A stretch of 64,000 nt of DNA from Narthecium ossifragum (lineage: Eukaryota > Streptophyta > Magnoliopsida > Dioscoreales > Nartheciaceae). The notes beneath the pieces are model-generated. The model had not been told where the DNA came from. It worked only from the letters and a program-made list of their open reading frames with translations, and did no database searches. The stretch covers positions 8,248,779 to 8,312,778 of the forward strand of contig OY986971.1 of NCBI GenBank assembly GCA_963920575.1, given 5' to 3'. This document shows, piece after piece, positions 894-63,668 of this stretch. Within the stretch, counting starts at the first letter, position 1. Each line of letters starts with the position of its first letter. A program made the position numbers and the translations under genes.

Positions 894-898
894 ATTTT

Positions 899-1202: not shown

Positions 1203-1461
1203 AACTGCGTAGTCAGCTAAGCCTTTTTACTTCAAAGTCTTTTCGTTTCAATTGTTGTTTTCCGGGTTTTGTCCTCTCCTCTGAATCTTCTATTTTTTTT
1301 TTCTCTGTTTGTGTGTGATCTTACATGCAAGGTAGACGATCCTTAAATACCCCGCTGGAACCTTTGGATCTAGAACTAGAGACCACACTCCGAAAAGCTA
1401 GTGCCTCAGAGGCTTGCAATCTTTGAGTAACTTGCAATCTATTCACGAGACCTTTGTCACC

Positions 1462-4710: not shown

Positions 4711-4727
4711 TGGCACCTTTGCGGGAA

Positions 4728-4775
4728 GTCGAGCGAAAGACTTAAAATTGCGCGCTTGTTGGGAGACAACCCAAG
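4728..4775 (+). other. Conserved Athila/Tat post-pol sequence
   Basis: The stretch from GTCGAGCG to GGGAGACAACCCAAG resembles the sequence that normally follows the integrase stop codon in Athila/Tat elements. Here it lies just past the gag-protease stop, as expected if RT, RNase H and integrase were removed by an internal deletion. Confidence 0.65.
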
Positions 4776-7140: not shown

Positions 7141-7151
7141 AAGTTGGGGGA
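7141..7151 (+). promoter_or_regulatory. Polypurine tract
   Basis: AAGTTGGGGGA directly precedes the TGTGATAAG start of the 3' LTR, the expected place for plus-strand priming. The one T pair is tolerated in plant elements. Confidence 0.75.
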
Positions 7152-8732
7152 TGTGATAAGTCACTAATTATTCATAATTAAACCCCTTAAATTACCTTTG
7201 TTAGGCCTAGAGTGGTTGTCTTTAATGTCATATTGCTTGATTTCAGGTTTAAATAGGTTTTGAGAAGAAATACAAGAGTTTCGGCTAAGAAGAGGAATTT
7301 ATTTGATAAAGACTGCTTCGTCGCCTGTCAGGAAAATATTCGCCAGATATTCTGTATAAGTCCAGATATTCTGTATAAGTCCAAATAGTACATGATAGAA
7401 GACTTCAAGCTCTACAATATTCATGTTGGACACTTTGCGAGATTCCTGATGGCGTGATAGCAGATTTGAAGAATACATGAAGATCCATAAGCTGGAAAGC
7501 TGCACCATCGATGCTGAAGTGAATATTCACCAAATATTCTACATTAATTAGAATATTCTGAAATTTTGGGAGATGAAAGAAGACTTCCAGATCTAGAACT
7601 TTTCTGTTGAAGACTTTCTCAGATTCCGAACATATTAGCTTCAGAATTGATTACAAATCGGAATTCCGAGTAGGAATTGAAGAATAAGGAAGCTGATGAC
7701 GTGGCAGTTATTAACCTAGTCAAACTGGGAAGTCCGATCGATCGGTTTGATTCCGATCGATCGCTCTGATGACGTCAGCGACCCGGAAATTAGGGAAATT
7801 AGAGTTTAACCTCTGTTAGGACTCCTAATTCGCAGGTTGAGGGTTTCTAATATAAAAAGGGGTCTTCCAGCCGAAAAATATCATCTTTTGGAGCACTTTT
7901 GAAGGAGAAGGTGAGGGTTTTGAAGACGGTGATCTTTCCGCGGGGATCGACGGCTTCATCTTCTACACCTATGGCTGATTTCCAAGAGATGAGTGGCTAG
8001 TTTTCTTGTTCTTAGGAATACTATGAAACCCTAGTGTAACTTTTGATCTTTCTTAGTTGGATTTTTGTGAACTTCTCTATGTATAATCTCATGAATATGG
8101 TTTTAATGATTATAGAGTTGAAGGAATAGATTTCCGTTGACGTATTATTAGTCCTACATGATGGTTGTACTTGAGTGTAGAGATTCATGAGATAGTTTGC
8201 ATGTGGTTTGTGATTTACCTTTGAGATAATCTATGCTACGTGAAGATAAGTCATGCTAAGGTCATTAGGAGTAGAATAACTTAAGATAATGGTAGGACCA
8301 AAGATGATTTATGCCAAACAAAGATAGGTTATGCCGTAGGGAACATAAAACCTTCTTTTAGGGATTCGTGTGAGCTTGTAGCCATACGATCCATAATACT
8401 TAGAGAAGTGATCAAGATGATAACTATGGAAGATTAAGGGTGAAACTAGGGTGGATTGTGTATTTCCTAAGACATCTTTTTCCATCTGATTAAAACCATA
8501 ATATTTTCTTTTGCTTTCTTAGATAATTTCAGTTAAATCAATCTATCAGTGAAGTGTTTGATTTAGATCAAGAGTTTCGAGAATCGATTTTGGTTTTCCT
8601 AGTAATTCCCTGTGGTTCGACTCCGGATTTCACCACTAGTCTACCTAGTAGTATTAGTGATTGAACAAGGATATAAATTTAAGATTTGATTGAGGTTAGC
8701 AACGTTTTAACGACGACATTTGCGAGCGATCA
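7152..8732 (+). repeat. 3' LTR of the Athila-like element (1581 bp)
   Basis: It starts TGTGATAAGTCAC after the polypurine tract and ends GATCA. Two palindromic words lie at 7734-7745 (CCGATCGATCGG) and 7753-7763. Confidence 0.93.
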
Positions 8733-8757: not shown

Positions 8758-10304
8758 TGTCACGTCCCGACCTAGAAAACCAATCCAGATCGAGGTGCGA
8801 GCCACCTAAGCATGTTACATCATCAATAGGTGCACAAATATATAACTGCTATGAATTTAAACCATCTAGTCCTCCAGTTCATAAAAAACATTTGGCAGAA
8901 TCTCCTACATAATTATAACACACAAAACCTATATATTTTATAATTTTACAACTTCAACATCATTACTGACACGCCCTGACCCAGAAAACACATCCAGATC
9001 GAGGCGTGAGCCACCTAAACCTGTTTACATCATCAATAGGCGCACAAGCTGTCACACCCCGACCCAGAAAACCCATCCAGTACGGCGCGTTAGGGTTCTT
9101 ATAACTATTCATCTTCAACTGGCGCGATACATTGCGAAAAACATGGGTAAACTTAAACAATTTATATTCCAGAAGTAAGCTGTAATTCAATTTATAAATA
9201 CATCAAGTTGTACTGTCTAAACATCTGATTACTATTCTTATGAAACTCCTCCAAGGGAAAAGATATTATACAAATAATCCAAAAATTCTCGAAAGATGTT
9301 TATAATATACAAAACTATGAAAAAGTACAATAGTTACCCTGCAGCAACCTCAGACGCCTCTGGAAGTACTCGCGCCGCCAAAGGCTGATCCCGCCGGCTC
9401 TACTGCTGAAGAACTGACGCCTGCACCTGCAAACGCAGCCTGGGTAGGAGTGAGCGATAAGCTCAGTAGGGTTCTACTCTACGGCACACAGAAGGGAGAA
9501 AAACATCAACAATGATATCTCCCCGCTCAAGCCTAAGGAATGCCACGGGGTCCCACAACCCCTATCGACTCCCCAAAGGGATCCTACTCTTCTCAACCGA
9601 CCATGCTAGGAACATCAACCAACACGCTGGGAGGAAAAGAATCAGAACTAGTAGAATCACCGTTACCCAGCAGGAAACCACTGCCTGGGGACGATGTCAG
9701 GGACATCGACAACCATCCTTAACACTTAGCATTGGGAGGACAACACGACCTCTAAACCTCAAAGCAAAGATCATAGCCAACTATAACACATCCTCGATAA
9801 CATGAGATTCCGATTAAGATCACGTCCTAATCCTCACTACCCAGCCGCGGTCCTATGGCTAGATTCGAGCTACCCGAGAGCCTCGGATCGGCGATCAACC
9901 CATCGCCTATCTAACCTAGCATGTCTCTAATGCATACAATGTATGAACCTATGCAAACATCTATCCTAGATGTCTCTACATGACACAACATCAGTTAAAG
10001 GTTCAACATTTATACAATAGCCCTCGGCACTCGTCGGCAACGGGCTAAGCTTCCACAATACCTCATTAGCTAACACTCATAGTTAGCTAACGGCTAGTGA
10101 AAGCGATAAGCATTCAAGCTACTATCACCCAAACATTTAAATGCGAGTAAAGACCGTAAATTCGTCAAGAGATTAAATTCCCGATTCAATTCCCAATCTC
10201 GATAGCAATCCCGTGAAAACATCGTGTATGCTTCCTAACATGATTGGATATCTATCATAAATGAAAACCAATCAAAGAAAACCAGAAAACACAGCTCAGT
10301 GGCC

Positions 10305-10629
10305 CACGGTCGATGCGACGGTCGATCCGACGGTCGACCGTGGGGTCAAATGAGAAAAAAGCTTAAGGGCCACGGTCGATCGGTGCATTGACTCTGGGAA
10401 GCCCAAAACGAGACAGAGCCTTTGGGACGATGTGACGGTCGATCCGACGGTCGACAGTGAGGCGAAAAGGAAAAGAGAGGGAGCCCGCAGTCGATCGGTG
10501 CATCGACCCTGGGAAGCCCAAAACGCGACAGAGCCTCACGGATGATGCGATGGTCGATCCGACGGTCGACCGTAAGGCTCAAAAGAAGCGTATCAATGCT
10601 TGACGGTCGATCCACCGATCGACCGTCAA
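10305..10629. repeat. GGTCGA palindrome array with the shared 90-bp module
   Basis: GTCGA cores occur at 10309, 10321, 10333, 10375, 10439, 10450, 10490, 10553, 10565 and 10606. Close neighbours are 11-12 bp apart, about one helical turn. Words such as ACGGTCGACCGT are perfect palindromes. GGTCGAT and ATCGACC also pair across six-base loops. The module running from a GTCGATCGG word to GGTCGACCGT occurs twice here and again near 56080 and 62990. Confidence 0.8.
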
Positions 10630-11114
10630 GCCTAATGCACAGTTCATCAGAACAGTACCGGAAATCCAATTTCTTGGATTTGAATGATCAAAACATGTTG
10701 GACGTTGATGAAACTTTGCAAGCATGCGTAAAAGATGATGGAGAAGCTAATGATACGAATAAAACATGATTTTGATGGTTAAATCTCAAACCTAGGTCTC
10801 AATGGCCGAAACCCGACAAAACGGCGATAATACGGAAATCATCCGATAAAATACGAAAATCATCCGATAAAATACGGAAATCAACTGATAGGGTTACTAG
10901 AAGCAAGCTATAATGCACATGCATTGAACCACACAACATTCTAACAAGTATTCCTACAGCGAAAATACAAGAAACCTATCCTAAGAGAACCCGATTACAT
11001 GATCGAGGTAGAAACACCAACTTGGCCAAGTAGGGCAGCTCCTCCACGTGTCCAACCAGTCAAACCGCCAAGATCCGCTCCTCGAAGCTCGCGTCTCCAA
11101 GCCCTAGCTCAGCC

Positions 11115-11156
11115 GCAGGAGAGAGAGAAAGAGAAAGAGAGAGAGAGAGAAGGAGA
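11115..11156. repeat. GA-rich simple repeat
   Basis: A run of GA and GAAA units lies in the LTR. A counterpart is seen in the related LTR near 23398-23420. Confidence 0.8.
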
Positions 11157-11221
11157 CAATGACAGCAAAGGAGAAAGGAAAGAGAGAGAAAAGGGACAAG
11201 CTATATATAGAGATCTGAACC

Positions 11222-11275
11222 GATCTCGGTCGTCCGATTCGATCTTTCCCGATCGAGCTCCGATCTTCCGATCGA
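11222..11275. repeat. Loose GATC cluster near the LTR 5' end
   Basis: GATC cores occur at 11222, 11241, 11251, 11262 and 11270, mostly about 10 bp apart. The position in the LTR matches the first array of the plus-strand relatives at 15994 and 58249. Confidence 0.45.
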
Positions 11276-12126
11276 ACGCACCCTTAAGGTTCTAATCAAA
11301 CACATACATCAATCCAAGGCCGTGTGTGCAACGCGGGTGTGAAACTGATCACCAGGGGGCATATTTACCAAAATGCCCCTGGGGCTAAAAGCCACCATAC
11401 GATCGCCCGATCGTACCCGACGCGGAAATGAACCAAAAAGGAAAACGGCCCTCGACCCACGAGGTCGAGCCAGGTCGGAGGGACGGGCCCTCACACAAGC
11501 ATATAACGATTTTCACATTTAATTTGAACAATATGATCCTCCAGTTTATAACAAAATCGGCAGAGTCTCCTTTATAATTACAACACAAGAAACCTATTCA
11601 TTTTACAATTTCAAGTTGAGCAATGGCACCATATAAAAAACTAATTATTACATTTCTCAAATGTCTACATAAGTAATATGACAACATTTCACAAATACAA
11701 TTTAATTAATAATCATACAATTATGTTCTCGAATATTTCAGATTATACACCAATTTATACATCACTGATTAAAACTGTAAATTAACTGTAGAAGAACTCC
11801 TCAAAGCTCCAAGTCCTTGATCACCCCGAAATATCGCACCATCTTCTAAAAGAACACCTGAAAGAAGGAACTGCATCGACCTGCATCGCCGATGCAGCCC
11901 AGGTAGGGCGAGCAACAATGCCCAGAAGGGTTCTACTCTACGTCGCACAGAAAGGAAGAAAAACTACAACCGTGTCGTTCTCCGCCTAATTCTAAGGTAT
12001 GCTAAGGGGCCGCATAACCCCGTCGATTCCCGAGGGCTCCTGTCTAGGTCCCACCCTCACCCAAGAACAAACGAGAGGAAACAAAGACTGCAGGCTCCTG
12101 TCCAGGTACCATCCTGCCTAGTCGTA

Positions 12127-15364: not shown

Positions 15365-15993
15365 AACCCGAGATGACTCTTTCCTTCCACCTGATTATGA
15401 TCCAACTGAGTCTAAAGAGCCTGATCCAGCTAAATACATTCCAAAAGTGCCCTTTTCTGCAGCCCTTAAGGACCCGTACCCAACCATCAAAGCCCGAAGA
15501 GCTACTGAGTAAATTCTTGAAACTTTCAAACATGTCAACATCAACATACCCTTGCTTTAGGCCATTCGCCAGATTCCTACTTATGCCAAATTTCTTAAGG
15601 ACATGTGCACTTATAAACGCCAGATAAAACCCAAAGGGGACAAGAAAATCCTTTTACCTGAACAAGTCAGTTCAATTTTGAAACATGACACGCCACCCAA
15701 ATTAAAGGACCTTGATACCCCTACCATACCCTGTTACATAGGATACTACCAGATTGATGGTTCCCTTCTCGATCTAGGAGCCAGTGTGAGGACCCGCCCC
15801 TCTATCCCCGTGGCTTGTTGTTTACCCCAAGGGCAATTTGGGAAATTGCGCCTTGGCGGTCGTTTCACACTGGGTGTGCACACACAGACCTTGGTTGATG
15901 CTTGTGTTTGCTTAGAAAGGTTAGGTGGACCCGGGATCGGAAGATCTGGGCTTGGGCTTGAGTCTCAGCCCAAGGTTGCCTTTCTGAGCAAGG

Positions 15994-16073
15994 GAGATCG
16001 ATCTCATTTGGTGGTGAGATCGATCTGGCCTTGCTATCCAGATCGATCTGGCATGGCATGCAGATCGATCTCT
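15994..16073. repeat. GATCGATC array, GAG/CTC type, first cluster
   Basis: Cores start at 15996, 16018, 16041 and 16063, with spacing 22, 23 and 22 bp. Words include GAGATCGATCTC and CCAGATCGATCTGG. Confidence 0.85.
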
Positions 16074-16626
16074 TTGTGCCTGGAAGTCGTTGGCGGTGGC
16101 GTTCGAAGGACGGCCACGGCGATGGCCGTCGCTTCCCTTATCAGGGGAGGGGAGACTTTTGCTCCCCTCCTTCGCCTTTTCCCCGCCTTCGCCGGCTTTC
16201 CCCGGCCTTATCCCCTTCCCCTCCTCCTTCCTTTCTTTATCTTCTTCCCTCTTCTTCCTCCCGGCTCTGTTTTTCCTCCCCTGTTCCGGCAGCCCCTTTC
16301 CTCCTCTGTTCTCCCTCCTCCGGTCACCGTTCTCGGAGCTTGAAGGCTCGTTGGAACCGTGACGGCGTGAGGAAGATCCTAGGCTAGGCTTCGTGGATCG
16401 AAGCAGCTTTGTGGAGGTAGGGTTCTTACTCAAAGACTCCGGTTGTTTTAAAGGTTTGAAATCCGGTTTTGATTTCGATAGATCTCTTTGTGTAGTTGAT
16501 GTTTTCCGATTTTGAAGCCTTGAGTAGCTTCATGGTGCTTGGTTCTACCAGCCCACCTAGTTTGGTGAGGTTTGGTTGCGGATTCTGGCGGTATTCCTCG
16601 CCGTCCGGCCGCCGGTGAACCCAATC

Positions 16627-16858
16627 CGGATCGATCTCATGGGATGAGATCGGTCTCGGTCGGGGTGGCCCAGCCCACCCGAGCGAGAGCGATCTCCCTG
16701 GGAGGGAGATCGATCTCTTGGCAGCTGGCGTTAGTGCGTCCCACGTCACCTACGAGATCGATCTCCATATGGGTGGAGATCGATCCCGTTGGGGTGACCA
16801 GGACTGGTACCTATCGCCTTGAGGCAGATCGATCTCATTGCTACATGAGATCGATCTC
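16627..16858. repeat. GATCGATC array, GAG/CTC type, second cluster
   Basis: Cores at 16629, 16648, 16708, 16756, 16778, 16827 and 16849, plus a partial word near 16691. Pairs 16756/16778 and 16827/16849 are each 22 bp apart. Confidence 0.85.
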
Positions 16859-19312
16859 CTTCGATGCAGGGAGGACTTTAATTCGTTTCAAATGTTGTCT
16901 TGCCCGCGGGGCTTCGCATGTAAGTGGTTTTGACGGTTCTGCCCTTGGGGCTTATCATATTACTCATCATGCTTGAATGCTTATCGCTTTGTGGTGGAAC
17001 CGAGAGGGTGATGCCTCTCGGGATGTGTAGAATAAATGGGCTTACGGTATGCCCTTTACCGCTTTGTGGTGAACCGAGGAAGTCATGATCCTCGGGAGTG
17101 CTTAGACTAAATGGGCCGAAGGTGTGCCCTTGTTGTGTTGCCTGTTACTGCTTTATATTTATTCTGCTCTGCTTCCTGTGCATTAGACATGCTAGGTTAG
17201 ACTGGGTGGGGTTGACCCGTGGACTTCGGTGATCAAAGGGTAAGTGGTGGATGCCGTTACCCGACCTGTGTCCCCGTGCTGGTGTCCAGCACGGGCAAGG
17301 GTGTCCTACAGGTATCGTCTGGCCCAACCTGTGTCAGGGACCGTCGGAGGTAGCCCAGTCCTTGAGCAGTGGTTATCGGAGGGACGTACGTTGGACAGGA
17401 ACCCTGGAGGGGGAGAACATCGATGGGATCGATGGATTCCTTGGCTAGACTTAGTCTTTGGTCGGGAGTTAGGGGTCGTGTTGGCTTTGCTGCTTGGATT
17501 ACTGAGAGATGGTAGTCTTAACCACGGTCGTTCCGCCAAGTGTGGAGATCCCGCTTGGAGAAGGGTGTCCTACCAGTAGCGCCATGTCCACCCTGTGACA
17601 GGGATTGTCGGAGTTGTCCTCCCCTGAGCAATGGTTGTCGGAGGGGCGTACTTGGGACAGGAGTCCTTCGGGTTATTGACGGGATTTATGGGATCATTGG
17701 CAAGCCTCAATACTTGGCACAGAGTTGGTTCGTTTGAGTTTGCTTTCTTAGCGAGAGTGGTAGAGTAGGACCCTGCTGAGCTGTTGCTCATTCCTACCTG
17801 GACTGTGTTGTTTGCAGGTGCAGGTCCCAACTCCTCTCCGGTGCTTCCCCGTCGGTTGTCTCGTGGTAGCGCGCCGGCTCCTGACCATGTCTGAGGGTCA
17901 GGAGGGTTTTGTTTGTGCCTTTGCGGAGACCCCGGTGGGTGTTGTAGCTCTTTTTGGGGACTGTGTTGATCCCTTGTAAATCTGTTGTATTAGAACCCTT
18001 GTTTAACTCTATTATATCCGTTTGTTAATAGATGTTGTTAAGTTTGCTTCCGCTTTGTTCCTGTTGTCGGCTGTTTCCGCCAGCTGTGTGTTAGTTTCAA
18101 CTGTTTTCGCCAGTTGAGGCTAGTAGTTGTAGGTTTTCCCCCTCGTGTCCCGGCCCGGTTTGGCGTCCGCGGGTCGGGGCGCGACAGCCAGTGTTAACAT
18201 TTTGTCCTACTACCTTTATAAGGAATTTGGGATGGAAGAGCTCAAACCGACACTGATCAGTCTACAATTGGCTGATAGATCCATTAGGACTCCTAGAGGC
18301 ATTGTAGAAGATGTTTTAGTGAAGGTGGACAACTTTTTTTTCCCTGTCGACTTTGTCGTCTTGGATATGGAACCCGCTGTTCACTGCAAAAGAAAACGTG
18401 TCTATCATCTTAGGACGTCCCTTTTTGGCTACAGCAAATGCGAATATCAACTGTCGAAATGGTGTCATGGATGTCTCTTTTGACCATATGCATGTTAAAC
18501 TGAACATCTTTAAGACTGCATATCTGCCTGAGCGTGAGAATGAATGCTTCCATGTTGATAGTTTGACTGACTGCTTTGATGATAAATCTCATGTTATAAT
18601 GATTGATAGATTGTCTCAACTTTTGAGGGAGTATGATTCTGACGATGATGATTATGATCTTAAACTGCACAATGATAGATTGTCTAAGATTCTGGAGGAG
18701 TATGATTCTGACAATGCTGGTAATGATGCTAAACTATATGATGATAGATTGCCTATAATTTGGGATGAGTATGATTCTGAGGATGATGATGTTGAATTAA
18801 AGAATAAAATTATGTTTGATATTTTGAATGCCTATGCTTTTGACTCTGATGATGATGTTAATCGGGACACTGCACAATCGAAAGATGACATCAAACCACA
18901 CATCTTGCCCGACCAATCACTCGATCAGCACACTGCAGAGACAAAAACTATTTCTTGGGTGGTTGAGCCCCTTCCACCGTTATCTTTTACTCCTGCACCT
19001 GACTTAGATCTTGGACAAGTTCGTGCTTATTATGTTGACACACACTTTTGCACAGATGTGTCAGTATATTCTAAACTTGAGCCACCACCTCCTCCTTTAC
19101 CTATATTTGCACCATCGTCATTGCCTACATCTATTCTGAGATCAAAATCCCCTCCATGTTCACTTCCGGGTTTCAACATTATGAGGGACACATACCGTAG
19201 ACCGGGTTGCAAGATGAAACATGACGATAGGTTGCCATGCATAGAGGGTGGAGTCTCTAGTTCACAAGTGGGGAGGAAAGAACTGATTGACCTGCATCAT
19301 CAAATATGATCA

Positions 19313-21904: not shown

Positions 21905-21980
21905 GTGCACTGGTCAGTGCCCTGTGCACTGGACAGTGCCCTGTGCATGGGTCAGTGCCCTGTGCACGCAGTGCCCTGTT
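21905..21980. repeat. 19-bp tandem array with GTGCAC palindromes
   Basis: Words at 21905, 21924, 21943 (GTGCAT) and 21962 are exactly 19 bp apart with CAGTGCCCT between them. The relative position in the LTR (about 870-945) matches the GATCGATC array of the LTR at 15785 (about 845-1075), but the word is different. Confidence 0.85.
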
Positions 21981-22439: not shown

Positions 22440-22590
22440 GTCTAGGGACTAAGTTGATTAAAGATCTGATCTGAGGACTTTGATTTGATTGAAAATCTGA
22501 TTTGAGGATTTGATCTGATTGAAGATCTGGCTTGAGGATTTGATCTGATTGAGGATCTGGCTTGAGGATTTGATCTGATTGAGGATGTGT
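22440..22590. repeat. About 29-bp tandem repeat
   Basis: GATTTGATCTGATTGA followed by AGATCTGGCTTGAG or variants repeats about four times. Confidence 0.8.
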
Positions 22591-22868
22591 TGCCTATACT
22601 AGTGTACTGAGGCCTGTATAGAGTCTATAGGGGTCTGGCGAGCGTTGACGGCCGGACGCGGCGACTGTGCGTGTAAGACTTACCCAGACTAGCCAGACCA
22701 TACTAGGATCAGTAAACTAGTATAGGATGTTGTACCTATACTAGTATACTGGGGCTGGGTATAGAGTCTATAGGGGTATGGGCTAGCGTTGGCGGCCGGA
22801 CGCGGTGCTGTGCATGTAAGACTTACTCATACTAGCCAGACCATAATTGGGCAGTATACTAGGATAGG
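22590..22868. repeat. Tandem duplication of about 135 bp
   Basis: Two diverged copies share CCTATACTAGT, GAGTCTATAGGGGT, GCGGCCGGACGCGG-like and ACTAGCCAGACCATA segments in the same order. Confidence 0.8.
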
Positions 22869-24444
22869 TGGGTGTACACCAGTGTCCTAGAGTGTCAGGT
22901 GACTCCTACTGGGCTTTTGAGCTCATTGTTTGGGTTTTTGGTTTTTGGTGCAGGTAGGCCCAAGACCACTGTACTTATGGAGATCATGTTCTATGCAGAG
23001 GAGTCATTCTGTATTTTTGTTTCCTTTATTATGTATGATAAAGCCTGTATATGTTGGAAATGGAAGAATTGTGTATTATAAATTTTGGGCTGAATTATCA
23101 TGTATCTTTGTTGGATTTGTACTCATACATGCAATCTGATGAACTAAATGTATATTATTGGAAATGTTGAGGGCGGATGTGCTCCTAAGTGTGGTGAATG
23201 GTTGTAAAGAGATAAAGATTGTGATTAAATGCTTAAGATGTGTATATAAATTACCTATTGACAGGTTGTAATAGTGATCTCACGTGCCCGTGCCCAAGGG
23301 TCATGCCAAAATTTTCAGTAATTATTTGGGATAAATTGTATTAAATTGGGGCGGGGCGTGACAAGAAAAAAGAAAAGAAAAAGGAAAATAAAGAAAGAGG
23401 GAGAGAGAGAGAGAGAAGAGGGTTAAGCCACTTAAGTGGCTGAACTGGTCTAGCCGAGTCAACTAATCGGACTGAATCCGATTTGACTCCAAATTGTGAT
23501 CTCGTCACAATCTCATCCGGATCTGACGATCGTGATCGCTTCAACTGAATCTAAACAATCAAATACATAAATCAAGGCTGTGTGCACTACGCGAGTGTGA
23601 AACCGACCGTCAAGGCGCAATTTACCAAATTGCCCTCGGGGTCCAAAAACAGCGATGCGATCAACTGATCGCAAAGAAAGGCTAACCGAGCCAACCCAAC
23701 CAAGTCAGACCCTCGACCTAACACGGTTGGATCGGGTCGGAGGAACAAGTCCTCACAATTACATTCCTCAACGTCTACATCAAAGAATATTACAACATTT
23801 CTAAAATACAACTGAATTAGTAATAATACAATTCTGTTCTTGGATACATCAGATTATATATCAATTTGTACTTCATTGATTAAAACTGTAAATTAACTGT
23901 AGAAGAACTCCTCGAAGCTCCAAGTCCTCGATCAACTCGAAATATCGTGCTATCTTCTAGAAGAACACCTGAAAGAAGGAACTGCATCGACCTGCATCGC
24001 CGATGCAGCTCAGGTAGGGTGAGCATATAGCCCAGTAGGGTTCCACTCTATGGCACAGTCAAGGAAAGGGAACTGCAAATGCGTTGGGTCTCATCACGGG
24101 TTAAGGGGACTCTCTCTACGCCCACGACCTACTCAAGGTACGGACACAGGGTTGCTAACTCCTGAACCAACCGCCGCCCCTATTCCCAAGGGTCACAACC
24201 CTATTGGCGAAGCAAGGTGGTGAGCACAACGGGCTAGAACACACAGTGCGAGTGTATCGCCGCTACCCTGCCGCCTACCACGTCCTCATCCACTATGCAC
24301 GGGGAAACATAACAACGGAGGTAGGACACAGCATGGTGCACAAGCCCTACAGAGCACACCGTTCTGAAACCACGATACAACCTCTACACCTCAAGAACCA
24401 CGATTCAAGTCAACTACTTAATGTCCTCAAATACGAAATATGAT

Positions 24445-25880
24445 TGATATCACTCAAATGTGTCACGCACATAAGAGAGGTCGAACCCACAGAGAGATAA
24501 GCAGAAAATATCCAAAACACAAATAACAATGAATCGAAAACAAACGAGAATTTAAGAATTAACTAAATTAGATCGAAGGATTTAATTATAATGTAAGGTT
24601 AACTAAAGATATCAGGATTTTGATAAGGCTAGGAATCGGGAATCACTTCACTCGGATTTAGGTTCTCCTTCTACCAACGGTTCATTCAATACTCAGTTAA
24701 GGGATTCACATCCCAATCACCTTAACCGGAAGATATGGAATTATGAATCTAACAAAATATATAAATGTCTCTTCATACGATTGATTCTTCCTTATTATAG
24801 TTCTAACTTCATCCAACCCAAACCTTAGAATATATGATACCGGCTGTCACTACAGGCAACGTATAGCAAAAGTTCATCGGGACAAAGCCCTAACTCTATC
24901 TTACCATATCTCTAAGAATACACAATACCAACTCTCACAATCGGCAATGCATAGCAAAAATTTCACGAGATAAAGTAGGTAAATAATAGATATAATCCTT
25001 GAAGATTCAATACATAGAAAAGAGTTTAACAATAAAGATTAAAACTATGAACCATGATGAAGAAGAAACCCTAATCCTTGCTAGATCATCTGTCCGCCAT
25101 GCTCGCGGATTACTCGACCATTGATGGAGATTTCTTCATCCTCTTCCTTGTCTTTCTCCCCTCCAAAGGCTCTGTAGGAAAACCTCTTGGAACCCTAGAA
25201 AGAGTCCTATTTATAGCCTTAAAGTGTCTCCATCCTCGAATTTAATTTTCTTCACTGCGAAGGTAAGATCGACCCTTCCATAGGTGTAAGATCGATCATT
25301 TGATATCAAAATCTTAAATTTCTGGCTACACCCGAGGAAGATCAATCTCTTGATAGAAGCATAAACGATCCTTTTCAGTAGGATGGATCCTTCGATAAGA
25401 GAAAGATCGATCCTTCTCCTCAACGATTTCCTCAATATTCTCGAGTGAAAGGAGGATCGATCCTTCTGTGATCATCTGAAAAGTATATGCTCTGTCAGGT
25501 CTATCTGCATAAAAGGATCGATCCTTTAAGGGAAAATGATCGATCTTTCTTTCCTGAGTATTTACTGTTTTGCCATCCATACTGCGCCATTGGTACTAAA
25601 ATTGCCGTAACTTCCTTTACAAAACTCGGAATCACGAACCGTAAAATTCTCCAGAAACTAGACTTCAAGAGCTTTCCAACCATTTATGGAACATCATCTG
25701 ATTCTTCATAAGAAGGTACAGTTTTGGTGTTAAAGACCAATCTTTGCTTCAATTTCTTGCATAATACAAATAACTTTGTGTAGCAACATATACGAACGAA
25801 AATCATCTACATAAATTATGAAAACTCAACAAATAAGCTGCTCTTAGTCATGTTCAGAGTGCAATTTCATGCACTCATCA
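24445..25880 (-). mobile_element. Solo LTR, TGATGA family, minus strand (1436 bp)
   Basis: The plus-strand ends are TGATATCACTC and GCACTCATCA, with the perfect duplication ATGAT at 24440-24444 and 25881-25885. It is related to the LTRs at 28208-30020 and 61965-63668. No coding region is present. Confidence 0.82.
25267..25545. repeat. GATCGATC array, AAG/CTT type
   Basis: Cores or variants at 25267, 25290, 25340, 25382, 25405, 25455, 25516 and 25538. Pairs 25267/25290, 25382/25405 and 25516/25538 are 22-23 bp apart. Best words are AAAGGATCGATCCTTT and AAAGATCGATCCTT. Confidence 0.82.
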
Positions 25881-28207: not shown

Positions 28208-30020
28208 TGATGATGATGCAAAATGTCATATTTTTATCCAACAATGCCTATTTTTCTGTGCTTATTTGGTACCTAAATATACTCATTATTCTTATATTTT
28301 GATTTAGGATGCAATTGGAGTCCTTCAGTGCGAAATAAAGCTGATTGGTGATTTTGGACAGTTTTGACATCAATTTGTAAATAGGGCATAATGTTTTCAT
28401 CCGAGCTCTGATTTGGATGATTCAAGATGCTATGGAAAGGCAAGAAATAGATCTATAAATTTCATGTTTTGAGTGTTAAGAGATTCTGGTTGATTGTGTC
28501 AAGGAAATCGAGGCCAAAAGGTACAAAGAGTATTACAAAGAAGATGGATCAGATTCCAAGATTAAACTATACCTAGTCGGGAAGAACTAGATGAGGTGCC
28601 ATATATGATTGGATATCTCTAGAAGTCTAGTTTCTTGAGAATTTTACGGTTCGTGATTTGGAACTTCCTAGAGAAAGTTATAGTGCTTTTAGTACCATCA
28701 ACGCAGGGCTGAATAGCAAAAGAAATATGCAGATGAGGTGCCATAGATGATCGATCTTTCTGCTATGACAGAGTTAACAGAGAGCAAGACTTGAAATGAT
28801 CGATCATCTCTTCTATGAATGATCAATCATTAATGCACCCAGAGATGACAGGGAGCCATGTTTAACCGGATCAATCATCTTCCATATGCAGATCGATCTT
28901 TGTTGGACGGAGGAAATTGAAGATATAAATGATCGATCATTTTCTATAAGAAGATCGATCATCTTCCAAGCTAGGAAAATTGAGAAAATCGATGATGGAG
29001 AAGATCGATCATCGTCGGGGTGCAGCCAGATTTGGGAGGAAATGATCGATCATCTTTATGAAATGATCGATCATTTTATAGCAGTTCAGTAAAATCAAGG
29101 GTGTAGATCTAATCCGAATTGAAAACTATTGGAGTCTATAAATAGGGGACCTAGGGTTACTCAAAAAGGATAGTCCTACATACTTTTGCTGCTACTTTAT
29201 ATTTCTTTTATATTTCTAGGGCTTTTCTCTTGAATAGTTTTGTCTTTTAAGGATTGTTCTTGATGGCCTTGTGTGGCTAATTCTTGATTCTTGGTCAAGG
29301 AAACTGAAACCTCGGAATCAATAAAACTATGAGATCTAATCTGTTTTCATTAGTCAATTTATACTTGAGTATTGGATGTTCTTCTGTGATTATATTCATG
29401 ATTGTCTTGTCTAATTGCGAGGAGGCCTACTAGTTTATTATTCATTGCAATCTACTGTCAGGTTGGATATCAAATCCGTAATTGTTTGATCCATCTAATA
29501 TGTGAAGCAACTAAGATCTATTGATTTACTGTGTTTCAGAGATTGTTAGATCTTAGGAAGAACGTTCGACTAAATTAAATACAACCGATTGTGCTTGTGT
29601 TATGTAGCTTCATCGATCTCTATGAATCTTAAGGCTGCTACTAGATTAATTCTACAGTGCTTGTCTTGGGATGTTTAATTGGATCGCCTGTTTCTAATTA
29701 ACTACGACAAGGAGAGATATGAAAATAATTCCAATGGTGAATATTCAAGGTGTGGATTGATATATACTTGCATCAATGATCAATTATAAAGATTCTGACG
29801 GTGGATGTTGACTTCGACCAAGTTTTGTTCTCTTGATTAAATTCGATTCTTCAATTTAGATTATTTCTTATTTGTTTTCGCTATACTCAAAACCCCGATA
29901 TTAATTCACGAAGCATAAGACTAGATTAGACACTCCTCGTGGAAACGACTCGTACTCGCACTACTACATTCATTTTAAAGAGTATTGGTTTTATTTTTGA
30001 TTGTCTGCAACAACACATCA
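28208..30020 (+). mobile_element. Solo LTR, TGATGA family, plus strand (1813 bp)
   Basis: The ends are TGATGATGATGC and CAACACATCA, with the perfect duplication GACAC at 28203-28207 and 30021-30025. Both the start (GCAAAATGTCAT) and the last about 150 bp align with the minus-strand copy at 61965-63668. No gene is present. Confidence 0.88.
28749..29075. repeat. GATCGATC array, ATG/CAT type
   Basis: Cores at 28749, 28798, 28821, 28869, 28891, 28931, 28953, 29003, 29044 and 29065. Successive pairs are 23, 22, 22 and 21 bp apart. Typical words are AATGATCGATCATT and AATGATCAATCATT. Confidence 0.87.
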
Positions 30021-30484: not shown

Positions 30485-30699
30485 TTTAGACAAAGAAAAA
30501 TGTTTCCCAGCCAACCGTCCTTTGGTTGGCTCTCAGCCAACCTGACATGGCTGATATGGATTGGCGACACGTGGCTGGGAAATCGACGGTGGAGAAGAGC
30601 TTACCCAGTCACCCACCTTTAGTTGCCCTAGCTGACCTCCACTTCTCCCATTCTCCTCCTTCTCCCACCGAGCTCCCATTCTCCTCATCCCGTCGGCGG

Positions 30700-31330
30700 T
30701 GCTCTCCTCCGCCGCGGGCTACTCCACCCGACCTCCTTCCGGCGGCTCCTCCACCTGGACCTCGCCTCCTCCACCCAGACCTCCTCCCGGTTTCTCCTCG
30801 ACCGGCGGATGCTCCCCAGACCTCCTCCCGACGGATCCTCCCCAGACCTCCTCCCGGCTGTTGCTCCTCCCGGCGGCTCCTCCACCTAGACCTCCTCCTG
30901 GTTTCTCCTCCACCCGGACCTCCATCGATCTACGCATCTCCCAGTGGCCCCTCCACCCAGGCCTCCCCATACCTCCTCCTGGCGGCTGCTCCACCCAATC
31001 CTCCACCCAGACCTCCTCCCGGCGGCTCCTCCACCCAGACCTCCTCCCCCCAGACCTCCACCCGGCGGCTCCTCCACCCAGTCCTCCTCCCGGCGGCTCC
31101 TCCACCCAGTCCTCCTCCCGGCGGCTCCTCCACCCGGCGGCTCCTCCACCCAGTCCTCCTCCCGGAGGCTCCTCCACCCAGACCTCCTCCCGGCGTCTCC
31201 TCCACCTAGTCCTCCTCCCGGCGGCTCCTCCACCCGGACCTCCATTGATATACTCAGCTCCCGGTGGCAGCGGCTCCTCCACCCGGACCTCCATTGATCT
31301 ACGCAGCTCCCGGTGGCAGTGGCTCCTCCA
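30700..31330. repeat. CT/CCG-rich minisatellite in the left TIR
   Basis: Degenerate units of about 27-30 bp built on CGGCGGCTCCTCCACCC and AGACCTCCTCC. The several long proline-rich ORFs on both strands are products of this repeat. Confidence 0.9.
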
Positions 31331-31679
31331 TCGATCTAGCTTGCAGCGGCTTCAACCTCGATCATTCTCCGGCTAACTACTTCCACGGCGGTGCTGCCGG
31401 TGCTCTCCGATCGACATAGACCTCAGGTTAGTGATTTGATTTTTTATTTCCTAGTTAAAACATGTTAGTGATCTGATTGAATTCATAGCTCCATCATAGA
31501 TGTAGTATGCACCATTTCAAGAGTTCTGTTTCAGTTCTAATGCAGTATATTTCAAGTGGAATATTAACAATAGATGTAGCAATTCTTGTTATTGAGTTCT
31601 CTTTTTAGCTTCAATTTCAACATATTAATGTGTTATCTTCTATGTTATTTATGTTCATGTTAGACACACGTTTAGAGTT

Positions 31680-32576
31680 ATGGCTACAAGTTCATCGAAT
31701 TCAAAGGGAGATGAAGCAAATGATGTTAATTTGTTGCCGGATCATTCTAATGTCATGATGGGCATGTGTGAAATAGTTGAAGAACCTAAATGTGGAATGA
31801 TATTTGATTCTGTAGAGCAGCTTGTACAGTATTACAGACTTTATGATAATCAAATTGGATTTTCTACGGCCAAGAGAAGCCGAAAGTTGGATGATAATGG
31901 AAATCTAAAACATATAACTCTAGTGTGTTCTCGTGCAAGGAAATTACAATCAAATGCAAATAACACACTACAGATGCATCCCACTTGCAAGACAGATTGT
32001 CAGGTTAGGTTGCATGCTTCGGTAGGTGTTGATGGGAGGTTGGTAGTCCTCACAATCATAACAGAACATAACCATACACTTAGCCCTTCTAAAGCAAGGT
32101 TTTTCTCATGTAACAAGATCATAGATGGAAAAGCGAAAAGAAGGCTCGAATTAAATGATCAGGCTGGCATTCCAATGTGTCGGAATTTCAATACATTTGT
32201 GGTTGAAGCAGGTGGGTATGAAAATTTAACATTTGGAGAGCGGGATTGTCGAAATCATATTAGTAAGGCCCGACGTTTGAGGCTAGGTGAAGGTGATGCC
32301 AAGGCTGTTTTTGCTTATTTTCAAAAGATGCAGGCAAAGAATTCAAATTTCTTCTATGCTTTTGATCTTGATGATGACTCTAGGATTCAGAATTTGTTTT
32401 GGGCAGATGCGCGCAGCAGGGCAGCCTTTGAATACTTTGGAGATGTGATAACCTTCGATACCACCTATCTCACTAACAAATATGACATGTCGTTTGCTCC
32501 ATTTGTAGGAGTGAACCATGATGCATACAAACCTGGTTTCAAGCTCTGTCCATGTCATGTACTCTATCATGACTAG
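31680..32576 (+). pseudogene. Truncated FAR1-type MULE transposase (298 aa)
   Basis: The ATG at 31680 opens a clean ORF. Residues about 45-150 form a FAR1 DNA-binding domain (C2HC-type region with CKTDCQVRL and EHNHTLS). Residues about 230-282 match the start of the MULE transposase core, with the first catalytic-type Asp in VITFDTTYLTNKYDM. Full proteins of this family are usually 600-800 residues. Here the reading ends soon after FVGVNHD in unrelated sequence, so the rest of the catalytic core and the SWIM zinc finger are missing. A leader intron from CAG|GTTAGT near 31427 is possible. The protein may still bind DNA but should not cut it. Confidence 0.82.
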
Positions 32577-34969: not shown

Positions 34970-35420
34970 TGATTGAGGTTGAAGCCCTGCCACCGGGAGC
35001 TGCGTAGATCAATGGAGGTCCTCGTGGAGGAGCCGCGGGGAGGAGGACTGGGTGGAGGAGGTCTGGGGAGGAGGTCTGGGTGGAGGAGCCGCCGGGGGGA
35101 GGTCTGGGGAGGAGGACTGGGTGGAGGAGCAGCCAGGAGGAGGACTGGGGGGGAGGTCTGGGGAGGAGGTCTGGGTGGAGGAGGTTTGGGTGGAGGAGCC
35201 GCCGGGAGGAGGTATGGGGAGGAGGTCCCGGTGGAGGAGCCGCCGGGAGGAGGTCTGGGGAGGATCCGCCGGGAGATGCGTAGATCGATGGAGGTCCTGG
35301 TCGAAGAGAAACCGGGAGGAACCGGGAGGAGGTCCGGGTGGAGGAGGTGAGGTCCGGGTGGAGGAGCCGCCGGGAGGAGGTCGGGTGTGGAGTAGCCCGC
35401 GACGGAGGAGAGCACCGTCG
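34970..35420. repeat. GA/GGC-rich minisatellite in the right TIR
   Basis: Inverted counterpart of the left-TIR minisatellite, with fewer and partly different units. Slippage has therefore acted separately on the two ends. Confidence 0.9.
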
Positions 35421-35789
35421 GCAGGATAAGGAGAAGGGGAGATCGGCGGGAGAAGAAGGAGAAGGGGAGATCGGCGGAGGATAGCGGAGCTCGCGGGAGA
35501 AGGAGAAGCGTAGGTCGGTGGAGGAGATCACCGCCGACAGCCTAAGGAGAAGGGGAGATCGGCGGGAGAAGGAGAAGGGGAGGGGAGATCGGTGATCGGT
35601 GGAGGAGAGGAGAGGTTGGCTGAGAAGGAAGGAGAAGAAGCAGAGAAAGCAGAGAGGAGAGGTTACCGGTCAAAATTGATTCAGCTTTCAAAATGTGGAC
35701 ACGTGTTGATCATCTACGCACGCCACGTTAGGTTGGTTGAGAGCCAACGCCACGTCAAGTTGGCTGTATATCACGGTTCTTTAGACAAA

Positions 35790-55905: not shown

Positions 55906-56820
55906 TGATAAAATATATGTTTAATATTTATTACCCCTTTAATTGGAAGCCTTAAATTCAATATTTGAGGATTTATTGTGCTGACGATCGACCGTGGGAA
56001 TGCGATGGTCGATCCATGGATCGACCGTGAGGTTGCATGGTGGATGCACCATACTTGACAAAATGAAATGTTGGCACGCGGTCGATCGGAGCATCGACCT
56101 TGAAAAGCCATTTTCTTAAAAGAGCCTGACGGTTAATGCGATGGTCGATGGACCGGTCGACCGTGGAGTTTGGACTTTGTTTTTTTTTTTAAATGTTGTA
56201 GGCTCACGGACGATTTGACGGGTGATGTGACGGTCGACCGTGGAGTATGACGATGAAAAGTGAAGAAGCGATGGTCGATCGGAGCATTATTGATATTTTT
56301 GAGATCATTTGATGGCAGTTGGAGGTTCTTTTTGAGCTGGATGAAGGCCAGATATAAGTAGTTCTTTATTGTAAACTTATTAGGATTATTATTGATATTT
56401 TTGAGATCATTTGAGCAAGTTTAAGCAAGAGTTTACTACTCATTCCCTTTGAGCTACAACCTTTGTAAATCTTCTTCGAGTATGAAGAAGTATATTGAGA
56501 GTAATCCAACAGCTGTTGACTGTGATTGTAAGGTTACCAAACACCAGGAAGCTTGGAGGAAAAGCTTGTAAAGATTTGCAAGTAGTAGAACCTCAAGGAG
56601 GACCTTGAGAGAAGTGGACGTAGACCAAGAGTTGGGTCGAACCACTATAAAATTGGTGCTATCTCTCTAACCTTAGCTTCTTTCATATAATTCTTGCATG
56701 CTGACTTACTTTTGTTTCATCTCATCTACAAGCATTTAAGGTGGTGGATCTCTCCTACCTGATTTTTCCATTAATATAGTTTTTCAAAAGGAGTCCAATT
56801 CACCCTCTCTTGGACCTTCA
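55906..56820 (+). repeat. 5' LTR of the copia element (about 915 bp)
   Basis: It is taken to run from TGATAAAATAT to CTTCA, directly before the primer site. The end is well supported. The start is chosen as the TG following the Kelch fragment and cannot be checked against a 3' LTR. Confidence 0.65.
55983..56288. repeat. GGTCGA palindrome array in the copia LTR
   Basis: Words include GGTCGATCCATGGATCGACC at 56007-56026, a perfect 20-bp palindrome. GGTCGAT/ATCGACC pairs across six bases at 56080-56099. ACGGTCGACCGT lies at 56230-56241. The 56078-56168 part is the shared module also found at 10370-10575 and 62986-63080. Confidence 0.82.
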
Positions 56821-58075: not shown

Positions 58076-58248
58076 CTAGTGACACACTTGTGAGGACCTG
58101 TCCCTCTAATCCTGTAGCTCGTTGTTGACCACAAGGGCAATTTGGTAAATTGCGCATTGTCGGTTTGTTTCTTACCCGTGTGTGCGCTCGCAACCTCTGA
58201 TTGATGTTTGTGTTTGATTAGATCTGTTTAAGGGGTTTTTGACCTATA

Positions 58249-58319
58249 GATCGATCCAAGCTAGTGTTGGATCGATCCAGCCAGTCTTGGATCGATCCGA
58301 CTTGGTGTGGGATCGATCC
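58249..58319. repeat. GATCGATC array, GG/CC type, first cluster
   Basis: Cores at 58249, 58270, 58290 and 58311, spaced 21, 20 and 21 bp. Most words are GGATCGATCC. Confidence 0.88.
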
Positions 58320-59280
58320 GGGACTAGAGCAGGTCTGTGTCTTCCTTTGCGAGGACGGCCGCCGTTGGCCGTCACTCTCTCCTGTCAGAAGGGGAGGACT
58401 TTCCCTCCCCTCCTTCCCCTTTTCCCCGGCCTTCTCGGCTTTCCCCTGCCTTTATTCCTCTTCTCTTCCTTCTCTTCTCTTCTCTTCCTTCTTCCTTCTT
58501 CTTTCTTCTTCTTCCGCGGCTCTGCTTCCTCTGTTCTTCCTGGCAACCACCTTCTTCTTCGCCGTTCTTCCTCCTCCGGCCACCGTTTTGGGCGTTCCAA
58601 GGCTCGTTGGAACCGTGGCGGCGTGAGGAAGATCCCTGGTGTGGTTTGGAGCTAGGTTGGTGACTGCTTTGCGGGGAATCAGCCGAGGATTGCGTTTCCG
58701 GTAGGTTTCTACCTACTTGAGTTAGTTTAATGGGTTTCTCGTAATCTAGCCATTAGATCTTACTGTATTTGTGTTGTTGGATGCATGTTGCTCAGTCTAA
58801 TTTCTGCTTTAAGTTTCATGAACTTTGGTTGAGATTTTAGTAGGTTTTATACATGTTTAATCTCAGATTTTCCGGTTTCTGCTGTTCTTGAAGAACATCC
58901 GGCTTGCGGCGAGTTTTTCGATCAGTACGTGTATGTTCTTGGGTTGTGATGAACATAAGAGTTGTAGATCTCTGAGTTATCTCTCAAACCCAACTGATGT
59001 CATAATTTTCTGATTTTCCTATGATTTGTTATGAATTTATTACTGCAGGGCTGCGTTGCAGCAAGTAACTGGTAAGTTAGTTTGATTAGTGATTTTGATT
59101 AGTGTTTTCTCGTTAATCTAGCCGTTGGATGTTTCTGACTTTTGGATATGTTGATCATGGCATATAGATCTACTGGAGGCTAGGTTGGATCTCGAATCTG
59201 ACGTCGGTTGAATGTCGGATCGACGGGTCAACTAGCTGCTATGTAGAGAATGATTTCCTTTTCTTGGGCTTTCCGAGTTC

Positions 59281-59464
59281 GATCGATCCAAGGACAAGTT
59301 GGATCGATCGGACTGCAAGTGGGATCGATCGGACTTCATGTAGGATCGATCGGACTGCAAGTAGGATCGATCCATGGGTGTGTTGGATCGGTCCAGGTTG
59401 CACCCAAGATGGTATGTTCACTGAGGGCTGTCGGATCAATCCATGGGTATGTTTGGATCGATCC
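59281..59464. repeat. GATCGATC array, GG/CC type, exact 21-bp period
   Basis: Cores at 59281, 59302, 59323, 59344, 59365 and 59386 are all exactly 21 bp apart. Two more lie at 59434 and 59456. The 13-bp spacers differ from one another, while the eight-base core varies only in one G at 59386 and one A at 59434. Confidence 0.92.
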
Positions 59465-60464
59465 AGTGTTTCCCAGGAACAGTATCTAAGGGTAGCAGAG
59501 AATGGCATGATATAAACTGTTGTTGTTACCGCTTTGTGGTTGAACCGGGAGTGTGATGACTCCCTGGATTGTGTAGAATAAATGGGCTGGCTGTATGCCC
59601 TTTATCGCTTTGTGGTTAACCGATGGAGTCATGAACCCTCGGGAATGCTTAGTATAAAGGGGCCAAAGATTGTGCCTTTGATTGTTGCTTGTTTATACTG
59701 TTACATGCATTGTTGATTGTGCATTAGATGCCTAGGGTTTGATGGCAGTGCTGTTAGTCTGCTGTTTGGGGTCGTGTTAGCTCTGTTGCTTGGAGTGCTG
59801 AGAGTTGGTTGTCATAACCACGGTTGTTCCGCCAAGTGTGGAGGTCCCGCTTGGAGAAGGGTGTCCTACATGTATCGTTATGTCCACCCTGTATCATGGA
59901 ATGTCGGAGAAAGTCCACCCTTGAACAGTGGCTGTTGGAGGACGTGCTTTGGACAGGTGCCCTTCGGGTTATTGATGGGATTTATGGGGTCCTTGGCAGG
60001 CCTCAGTACTTGGCACAGAGTTAGTTCAGTTATAGTTTCCCCTTCCTTGTGTGTGTCGTAGAGTAGAACCCTACTGAGCTTAGTGCTCACTCTTACCCGG
60101 GCGGCGTTTGCAGGTGCAGGTACCAGCTCTCCTGCGATGGGCCCCAGTTGCTCGTCCTGCGGTGGCGTGCCGACGTCAGGGCATGTTTGAGGGCCAGGAT
60201 GGTTTCTGCTGTGCTTTTCAGGAGACTACTGATGATGTAACTTTTTGAGTTTTATACATGTTTTGTACATGAGGACTGGTTTATGTAAATCTTAATGTAA
60301 CTCTGTTTTATGTACAGTTTTGTAATAATAGGAGTTGTTAGATTTACTTCTGTCCTCTGACTGCTTGTTGTAACTGTTTCCGCTAGTTGTTGTTAGTAGA
60401 TGTAGGAACCCCCCCCCTCGTGTCTCGGTTCGGATGGGTGTTCTGGGCCGGGGCGCGACACACT

Positions 60465-61964: not shown

Positions 61965-63668
61965 TGATGTATTGTCGCAAGCAATCAAAAATAAAACCAA
62001 TACTCTTTAAAATAAATGTAGTAGTGTGAGAACGAATCGATTCCACGAGGAGTATCTAGCCTAAGTTTAGTGCTATGTGAACAAGGATGGGGGGTTTTTA
62101 ATATAATGAAAACAAATAAGGAACAATCTAAATTGAAGAGTTGAATTTAATCAAGAGAATAAATTTTGGTCTAAGTCAACATCCACCATCGGAATCTTTA
62201 TAACTGATCATTCATGCAAGTATATATCAATTCACACCCTGAATATTCATCGTTCGAATTAAATTCGAATCTCTCCTCGTTCATAGTTAATTAGAAACAA
62301 GCGATCCAAGCAACCCTAACTACTAAACAATCTAAGACAAGCGCTGTAGATTTAATCTAGTAGCAGCCTTAAGAATAGAGAGATCGATGAAGCTAAACAA
62401 CACAAGCACAAGCGGTTGCAGTAAATCATTAAACCCTAGTTGCTTCGCAGATTAGAGGGATCAAACAATTACGGATTTGATATCCAACCTAGCTGTAGAT
62501 TGCAATTAATAATGAACTAGTAGGCCTACTAGCAATTAAACAAGGTAATCATAATTATAATCACAGAATAACATCCAATACTCAAATATGAATTGAACAA
62601 TAAAAATAGATTAGATGTCACAGTTCATGGATTCTGAGGTTTCAGTTTCCTTGACCAAGAATTAAGATTTAGCCACGTAAGGCCATTAAGAACAATCTAG
62701 CCAAGAAGAAACAAGAACCCTAGAAATATATAAGAAATAGAAAGTAGCAGCAAAATCCTCTAGAATTCGCCCCCCTCAATCCCTAGAAAGAATCTTATTT
62801 ATAGCCCATAAGTTTTCCATCCTCGGATTAGATCTGAGCCTTTTATTCTACAAAGTCAGTTAACAAAGATCGATCTTTATATAGGAGAATATCGATCTTT
62901 TCTTCCCAGATTGTGGATGCACCCCGACTAAGATCGATCTCTTATGTAAAGAAGATCGATCTCTTATTCCAAATTTCATGTTTACGCTCGTGGTTGATCT
63001 TTGCATCGACCCTGAGAAGGTATATTTTTGACAGAGGCTGACGGTCGATGCGGCGGTCAATGCGACGGTCGACCGTGAGTCTTTGTGATCTCTGGGTGCA
63101 TAATGGATCGATCTTGTATGGAAACAAGATCGATATTTTATTTTCTGCATATATCTTCTTCTATTCTGCCCTACGCTGGTGGTAGTAAAAGCACTGTAAT
63201 TTTCTTTAGAAAGCTCCAAATCATGAACCGTAAAATTCTACAGAAATGACTTCTAGAACTTTCCAATAATATATAGCATTTCATCTGGTTCTTCTCGAGT
63301 AGGTACAGATTAATCTTTGAAGCTGACCCATCTTCTTTCTAATCTTCTTCGTACCTTCTGGCTTCGATTGCCTTGATGCAATCAACCAGAATATCTCAAA
63401 ACGCAAAACATGAAAGTTGTATATATCTTCCTTTCCTTTCCATAGCATCTTGAATCATCCCAATCAGAGCTTGAATGGAAAAATTATGCCCAGATTACGA
63501 ACTGTTGTCAAAACTGTCCAGAATTGTCCATTTGGCTTCGTTTCTCAATTAAGATCTCGAATTGCATCCTAAATCAAAATATAAGAGTAGTGAGTATATT
63601 TAGGTATCAAATAAGTACAGAAGACTAGGCATTGAGAGCTATAAATATGACATTTTGCATTCTCATCA
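61965..63668 (-). mobile_element. Solo LTR, TGATGA family, minus strand (1704 bp)
   Basis: The plus-strand ends are TGATGTATTGTCGC and CATTCTCATCA. Flanks TAAAG (61960-61964) and CGAAG (63669-63673) are an imperfect 5-bp duplication, and the integrase frame resumes on the far side. It is closely related to the plus-strand copy at 28208-30020. Confidence 0.83.
62868..63135. repeat. Mixed array: GATCGATC pairs around a GGTCGA module
   Basis: GATCGATC cores or variants at 62868/62890, 62932/62954 and 63106/63128 form three pairs, each exactly 22 bp apart. Between the second and third pairs lies the shared GGTCGA module (62986-63080). Confidence 0.88.

Follow-up and report, generated by a model that had tools for sequence, protein, structure and literature searches.

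Arrays of a short palindrome with conserved cores and symmetric flanks in LTRs of two unrelated retrotransposon families of Narthecium ossifragum

Clustered palindromic motifs in plant LTRs are known from Sireviruses, where they lie upstream of the TATA box and vary in their letters between elements (Bousios et al. 2010, PMC2829016). The sections of that paper used here describe the clusters as Sirevirus-specific, with a Ty1/copia Sirevirus host, at least eight copies per element, a CGG-CCG core signature and a motif cluster that forms a CpG island as criteria, and could name no common binding factor; among the motifs given are CGGTCGACCG (Vitis) and ACAATCGATTGT (Tnd-1), Tnd-1 being the one exception to CGG-CCG. 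A foldback or small-RNA role has been suggested for the palindromes of maize Sireviruses, the palindrome regions of which are small-RNA hotspots (PMC5311732). The targets of the VANC protein encoded by VANDAL DNA transposons carry the non-palindromic motif YAGTATTAY (Hosaka et al. 2017, PMC5735166; PMC10398659). The plant GATC enhancer motif YVGATCBR is read by GATA factors and increases expression with each added copy when it lies downstream of start sites, its reported reach being within 500 bp of them (Voichek et al. 2024, PMC11525189; the main text, in the portion used here, has 0 occurrences of 'transposable' and 'retrotransposon').

The arrays of the palindrome GATCGATC described here are a variant of the palindromic LTR arrays known from Sireviruses (PMC2829016). 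The two have in common many-copy palindrome clusters, letters that depend on the element and, in 3/3 copies of our family C and in one zone of the LTR named F11 below, a position upstream of the TATA box. They differ in that GATCGATC lacks the CGG-CCG signature, in that not the core alone but also its flanks follow the element, and in that the clusters, Sirevirus-specific there, occur here in LTR families known as solo LTRs without internal genes. No description of GATCGATC arrays in LTRs was found among the listed papers on GATCGATC, AGATCGATCT and GGATCGATCC, judged mostly by titles and the starts of abstracts, and on the same basis of title and abstract start the listed papers showed none of such arrays outside Sireviruses.

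The window, that is, the whole 64-kb stretch of DNA that was analysed, is plant DNA dense in transposable elements, including gag elements, a Copia gag and a FAR1/MULE protein; the gag elements are presumably Athila-like. Among the best 120 of 663 matches listed in one similarity search and the best 120 of 869 in another, those with a name are from plants, except for one labelled Pseudomonas protegens in the former. A total of 41 GATCGATC copies were detected in it, whereas 100 shuffles that preserve dinucleotides gave 1.05 on average (sd 0.96, maximum 5), and GATCGATC ranks top in over-representation among all 8-mers of the window. The exact copies fall into LTR A (n = 10), LTR B (n = 10), family C (n = 17, i.e., 8 in C28, 5 in the fragment C25 and 4 in C62), and gag elements (n = 4), counts to be read beside the at least eight per element of Sireviruses. 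Those in the LTRs form seven arrays spread over two unrelated LTR families, A/B and C, between which no similarity was detected by self-comparison (E 1e-10, pieces of at least 80 bp) or in a search with A and B (E 0.001), and the core is common to both families and to a gag element. As one of seven arrays, the array that was noticed first (B2) belongs to a feature that extends well past its own coordinates. The copies compared throughout are those inside the window.

The gag element at 1-8732 is young, with LTRs (1-893 and 7840-8732) that are 99.8% identical; a third core of this element, at 1126, accompanies the following pair.

7736..7762, unstranded: core pair with a step of 19 bp, close to the 3' LTR of the gag element 1-8732 on its upstream side

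Several other repeats share the window. Long inverted repeats of proline-codon-like tandem units (30644-31330 and 34983-35470) surround a FAR1/MULE ORF (31629-32576), and together they look like a Mutator-like element with tandem-repeat ends. GCATGC-type palindromic repeats at 12200-12540 lie between ends GGTTGTTTGGTTGC and GCAACCAAACGCCCC and look like a MITE, and about four 19-bp units GTGCACTGGTCAGTGCCCT are arranged around a GTGCAC palindrome at 21905-21979. The Vitis motif CGGTCGACCG has five occurrences in the window; more TCGA-centred arrays containing it are found at 55980-56290, ahead of the Copia gag, and at 63039-63080, within LTR C62. At Rfam gathering thresholds no RNA family matched at the arrays, the single match elsewhere in the window being plant snoRNA R71 (1906-2012, minus strand, 63.6 bits against a gathering threshold of 40), antisense within the gag ORF 1402-4710. 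The presence of such arrays in virus contigs was considered and rejected: of two stretches in an IMG/VR scan, both read by eye and in part, one (L001) resembles a repeat within a longer coding-like stretch and the other (L002) resembles phage or bacterial DNA.

The arrays of family A/B are as follows.

58089..60460, plus strand: solo LTR B, with ends TGTGAGGACC...GGGGCGCGACA, sitting within a Copia element
58249..58318, unstranded: array B1, four exact cores at 58249, 58270, 58290 and 58311 (steps 21, 20, 21)
59281..59463, unstranded: array B2, exact cores at 59281, 59302, 59323, 59344, 59365 and 59456
15785..18186, plus strand: solo LTR A, same family as B, target duplication GCCAG
15996..16070, unstranded: array A1, which corresponds in position to B1, with four exact cores (steps 22, 23, 22)
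16629..16856, unstranded: array A2, exact cores at 16629, 16708, 16756, 16778, 16827 and 16849

B2 lies inside an LTR, as the first-pass annotation had proposed, and this LTR is a solo LTR; its target duplication is ACACT, provided that one terminal base is shared. The same annotation had counted six cores exactly 21 bp apart. Five exact cores do follow each other at 21 bp, but the sixth in-register unit (59386, GATCGGTC) deviates at one position. The sixth exact core (59456) falls out of register, 91 bp past the fifth, which is no multiple of 21, and 22 bp after a degenerate one-mismatch unit at 59434 (GATCAATC). The spacers of B2 have diverged overall, but unevenly, those after cores 2, 3, and 4 being near copies that represent a tandem duplication of recent date. 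Averaged over all pairs of units on the six-unit grid, identity was 0.958 for the 8-bp core and 0.441 for the 13-bp spacer, and removal of two of the three similar units left 0.938 and 0.359, respectively; in a column shuffle an equally conserved run of 8 columns was obtained at P = 0.0004.

That the core is kept while the spacers drift, also proposed at first pass, holds as well between the upstream arrays of A and B, two LTRs with a mean column identity of 76%. Arrays A1 and B1 each have four exact cores although every spacer differs in length. Core identity was 28/32 when defined on A and 29/32 when defined on B, the aligner having shifted the fourth core, compared with 19/43 and 19/38 (44–50%) for the spacers and 322/462 and 321/458 ungapped positions for the remainder of the segment; these alignments are, inside the arrays, partly anchored by the cores themselves. 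Array A2 is less regular (steps 79, 48, 22, 49, and 22, with one-mismatch sites at 16648 and 16687). A simple motif scan detected no TATA box common to A and B, and near the ends of A and B, at distances of 44 and 43 bp, there are C runs of 5 and 9.

The three copies of family C, which is unrelated to A/B, place the arrays relative to a TATA box.

28208..30020, plus strand: solo LTR C28, family C, target duplication GACAC
28749..29072, unstranded: array C28, with eight exact cores, followed after 65 bp by the TATA box TATAAATA (29137)
61965..63668, minus strand: solo LTR C62, family C, flanks TAAAG/CGAAG, a decayed duplication
62868..63113, unstranded: array C62, four exact cores, minus-strand TATA box at plus-strand coordinates 62797-62803, 65 bp away
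25290..25545, unstranded: array C25, with five exact cores, within a fragment of family C, minus-strand TATA box at 25209-25215, 75 bp away

The arrays are thus 65, 65, and 75 bp upstream of TATAAATA in 3/3 family C copies, and this TATA box aligns between the copies; further TATA-like strings were present in the family C LTRs in a simple motif scan. Family C and the F11 zone described below therefore have their arrays in the promoter-proximal zone, as do the Sirevirus motifs. C28 and C62 can be aligned over their length. For C62 versus C28, identities were 25/32 and 41/64 in cores, 4/14 and 71/175 in spacers, and 1281/1624 and 1198/1486 in the rest; the corresponding values were 27/40 and 44/64, 23/56 and 63/175, and 271/461 and 214/375 for C25 versus C28, and 30/40 and 28/32, 24/56 and 9/14, and 298/481 and 315/525 for C25 versus C62. 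The picture is weaker than for A/B: the core is above the spacer in every comparison, although here too the cores partly anchor the alignments within arrays, and the relation of the core to the remainder of the LTR is mixed.

The bases next to the core are symmetric as well. Complementary bases flank GATCGATC at the first position on either side in 27/41 copies (12.1 expected) and at the second in 25/41 (11.5 expected), with 0/20,000 shuffles as high, and the symmetry fades farther out (third base, 16, P = 0.04; fourth base, 17, P = 0.09). The type of flank pair follows the element: it is A-T in 8/10 copies of LTR A, G-C in 5/10 of LTR B (plus three G-G), T-A in 4/8 of C28, A-T in 3/4 of C62, and C-G in 4/4 of the gag-element sites, and mixed in C25 (G-C in 2/5). 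In both LTR A and LTR B, the type is common to the two arrays of one LTR, which are 0.6–1 kb apart. When shuffling was done within elements the excess of symmetry was gone (P = 0.71). Symmetric flanks are therefore passed on element by element, and the independent cases number about six.

Neighboring cores keep a preferred distance that is not a fixed one. Of the 30 neighbor steps in the seven arrays, 16 are 20–23 bp, compared with 2.9 expected in the 19–23 bp bin under random placement within each array (without LTR B, 9/22 versus 1.9); none is below 19 bp, none is 24–39 bp, and the others are at least 40 bp, with steps of 40–41 and 48–50 bp recurrent. An exact 21-bp period, which the first-pass annotation had read from B2, is therefore not supported for the arrays, which step by 20, 21, 22, or 23 bp in addition to the longer distances, and its suggestion that all palindromes share one helical face does not hold with such varying steps. 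The preferred unit is about two helical turns, neither exactly 21 bp nor on one face throughout. A two-turn phasing rule was tried on the 30 steps and gave no clear result, the resultant being 0.66 at 10.0 bp, 0.47 at 10.5, and 0.28 at 11.0.

More distant relatives of A/B show which of these features last.

9050..11495, minus strand: solo LTR F11, farther relative of A/B, target duplication GCTTG on both sides, boundaries set by eye
11202..11273, minus strand: upstream zone of F11, corresponding to A1/B1 in place, with six GATC in 62 bp that immediately precede TATATATA, read by eye
10305..10631, minus strand: F11 second zone, with GGTCGACC, GATCGACC and similar TCGA-centred sites, in the approximate place of A2/B2
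23425..23643, minus strand: fragment F23 of the family, the 5' part of the LTR and then three other inverted repeats where the array is expected

The array recurs in the three relatives of LTR B in the window in part, a mixed outcome for absence from other copies, which the first-pass annotation had named as refuting its reading. LTR A carries GATCGATC arrays at either place. F11 lacks exact GATCGATC but has related GATC/GGTC clusters in both places: the six GATC of its upstream zone compare with about 0.4 expected (from 407 per window), the zone adjoins TATATATA, so that its clustered GATC sites lie upstream of a TATA box, and the second zone is a GATC/GGTC array with 10 sites listed, 2 of them perfect palindromes. 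Measured from the LTR start, this second zone spans 871–1180 bp in F11, which is approximately the place of the second array in A (844–1072) and B (1192–1375). Around F23, in 22500-23800, sites that differ from GATCGATC by at most one mismatch are absent, and F23 carries other inverted repeats in the upstream place, with 22 arm bases versus 1.5 in shuffles (0/300 as high). Because neither F11 nor F23 has GATCGATC where the arrays would lie, conservation of the core as such does not extend over the entire family; what lasts in the array zone is dyad symmetry or GATC richness, and the exact core is confined to the A/B subgroup. Two minus-strand loci, 23539-24072 and 11256-12044, each have a 3'-LTR-like piece of the A/B family ahead of a 5'-LTR-like piece and are alike (86% over 313 bp).

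The element relics in the window are decaying. Among the one-mismatch sites listed near the arrays, 4/11 are GATCAATC, the pattern expected from CpG deamination. The CpG observed/expected ratio is 0.80–1.47 in the seven arrays and 0.72 in the window, a comparison of plain ratios in which the core itself contains CG.

The reading that we favor, to which we give roughly even odds (about 0.5), is that the arrays are cis-regulatory sites of retrotransposons near the LTR promoter and are read by a DNA-binding protein; judging from its sequence, B2 is most likely one of two binding-site arrays in solo LTR B. The reader would bind as a dimer or in tandem and would contact both half-sites together with one or two adjoining bases to the left and right. 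With the sites so densely clustered, its recruitment close to the LTR promoter could be cooperative and dose-dependent, with a putative transcriptional effect, and the arrays would have worked in this way before the elements became relics. Over evolutionary time a dyad-symmetric array would be retained at a set location within the LTR even as its letters and spacing change, a way of working that may be likened to that of the Sirevirus palindromic motifs.

As to the identity of such a reader, host GATA factors are the most concrete candidates, for LTR B only and as a weaker step of the argument, one that leaves out the majority of the arrays in LTR A and in family C. The GATC enhancer motif resembles the arrays in its GATC core, the copy-number-dependent effect being that of the motif, and LTR B contains 20 YVGATCBR matches (8.4 per kb, compared with 0.99 outside the listed elements). 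The half-sites that fit YVGATCBR number 16/20 in B and 6/8 at the gag-element sites, and 6/20 in A, 1/16 in C28, 0/10 in C25, and 1/8 in C62. The two differ in that the enhancer is reported to act downstream of gene start sites, whereas the flanks in family C are off the consensus and its arrays lie upstream of the TATA box; this position, which the F11 zone shares with family C, speaks against a GATC-enhancer placement there.

Several other explanations account for part of the same observations. One that we consider unlikely is anti-silencing of the VANC kind, in which an element-encoded protein binds the repeats of its own family and removes silencing marks, with protein and motif changing together. 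Like VANC targets, the arrays consist of short motifs in noncoding tandem repeats and turn over fast (PMC5735166), and their type differs between related elements, shifting in a block, in both arrays, between related LTRs (A-T in A; G-C or G-G in B). However, the VANC motif is non-palindromic in the account cited, and the palindrome core, in LTR relics here, is common to unrelated families, which is unexpected for a family-private system; solo LTRs carry no genes, and a VANC-type domain was detected in 0/9 window ORFs scanned with Pfam. Array transcripts might instead fold and feed or evade small-RNA silencing, which we regard as improbable for the arrays in general. Predicted RNA folding was far better than in shuffles for 5/5 stretches of A and B (z = −5.3, −4.7, −6.9, −7.4, and −8.1) and for C62 (z = −3.6), compared with z = −0.1 and −1.5 in control stretches of LTR B. 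C28, the richest in cores, folds no better than its shuffles (z = −0.8 and −1.6), and the same is true of the F11 zone (z = 0.99). Complementarity between neighbors, at 45/68 flank positions, is just slightly above self-symmetry (38/68 and 35/68; cross-element controls, 0.76 of 4) and so provides no separate argument for hairpins. The 21-nt small-RNA register considered at first pass is not compatible with steps that range from 20 to 50 bp. For F23, which has foldbacks without the core, the hairpin explanation is favored, and since other inverted repeats occupy its array place, the ability to fold back may be the retained trait there.

Neutral tandem duplication of a chance palindrome without function would explain the near copies among units 2–4 of B2, the growth and shrinkage of arrays between copies, and the lack of the core in F23. 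We nevertheless hold it to be a poor account of the whole, given the sharp gap in conservation between core and spacer, a core and a step common to unrelated families, spacers that are unrelated between arrays, and symmetric flanks. Two more explanations can be given almost no weight. A protein-coding heptad repeat, with 21 bp as seven codons, would fit two plus-strand frames that are open throughout B2 (115 and 80 aa), but the sister arrays step by 20, 22, and 23 bp, which are not multiples of three, and the 115-aa frame had no relative at E ≤ 1 among 75 candidates. An assembly artefact comes to mind as GATCGATC has been named as a Chicago-library ligation junction (PMC5288721); it is hardly credible here, with copies that are collinear through and past the arrays, regular steps, degenerate members near the arrays, and element-specific symmetric flanks, which a junction would not yield.

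Within the reading of the arrays as protein-binding sites, the presence of a single core in LTR families that are not related, together with flanks whose differences are symmetric and come as a block, is an argument for a protein that reads the sequence. The arrays offer a defined bait of 10–12 bp, natural variants, and matched scrambled controls, which makes a reader of LTR palindromes directly testable. A bolder extension, which we put forward as a doubtful possibility only, is that unrelated LTR families converged on GATCGATC arrays, each responding to its own version of a shared dimeric factor, as a diversifying address code; as part of this same tentative joint reading, the variants would be written as symmetric flanks (A-T, G-C, T-A, or C-G) outside the core and as GGTCGACC inside it. 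If the address code is true, the activation or anti-silencing of different elements would be kept apart.
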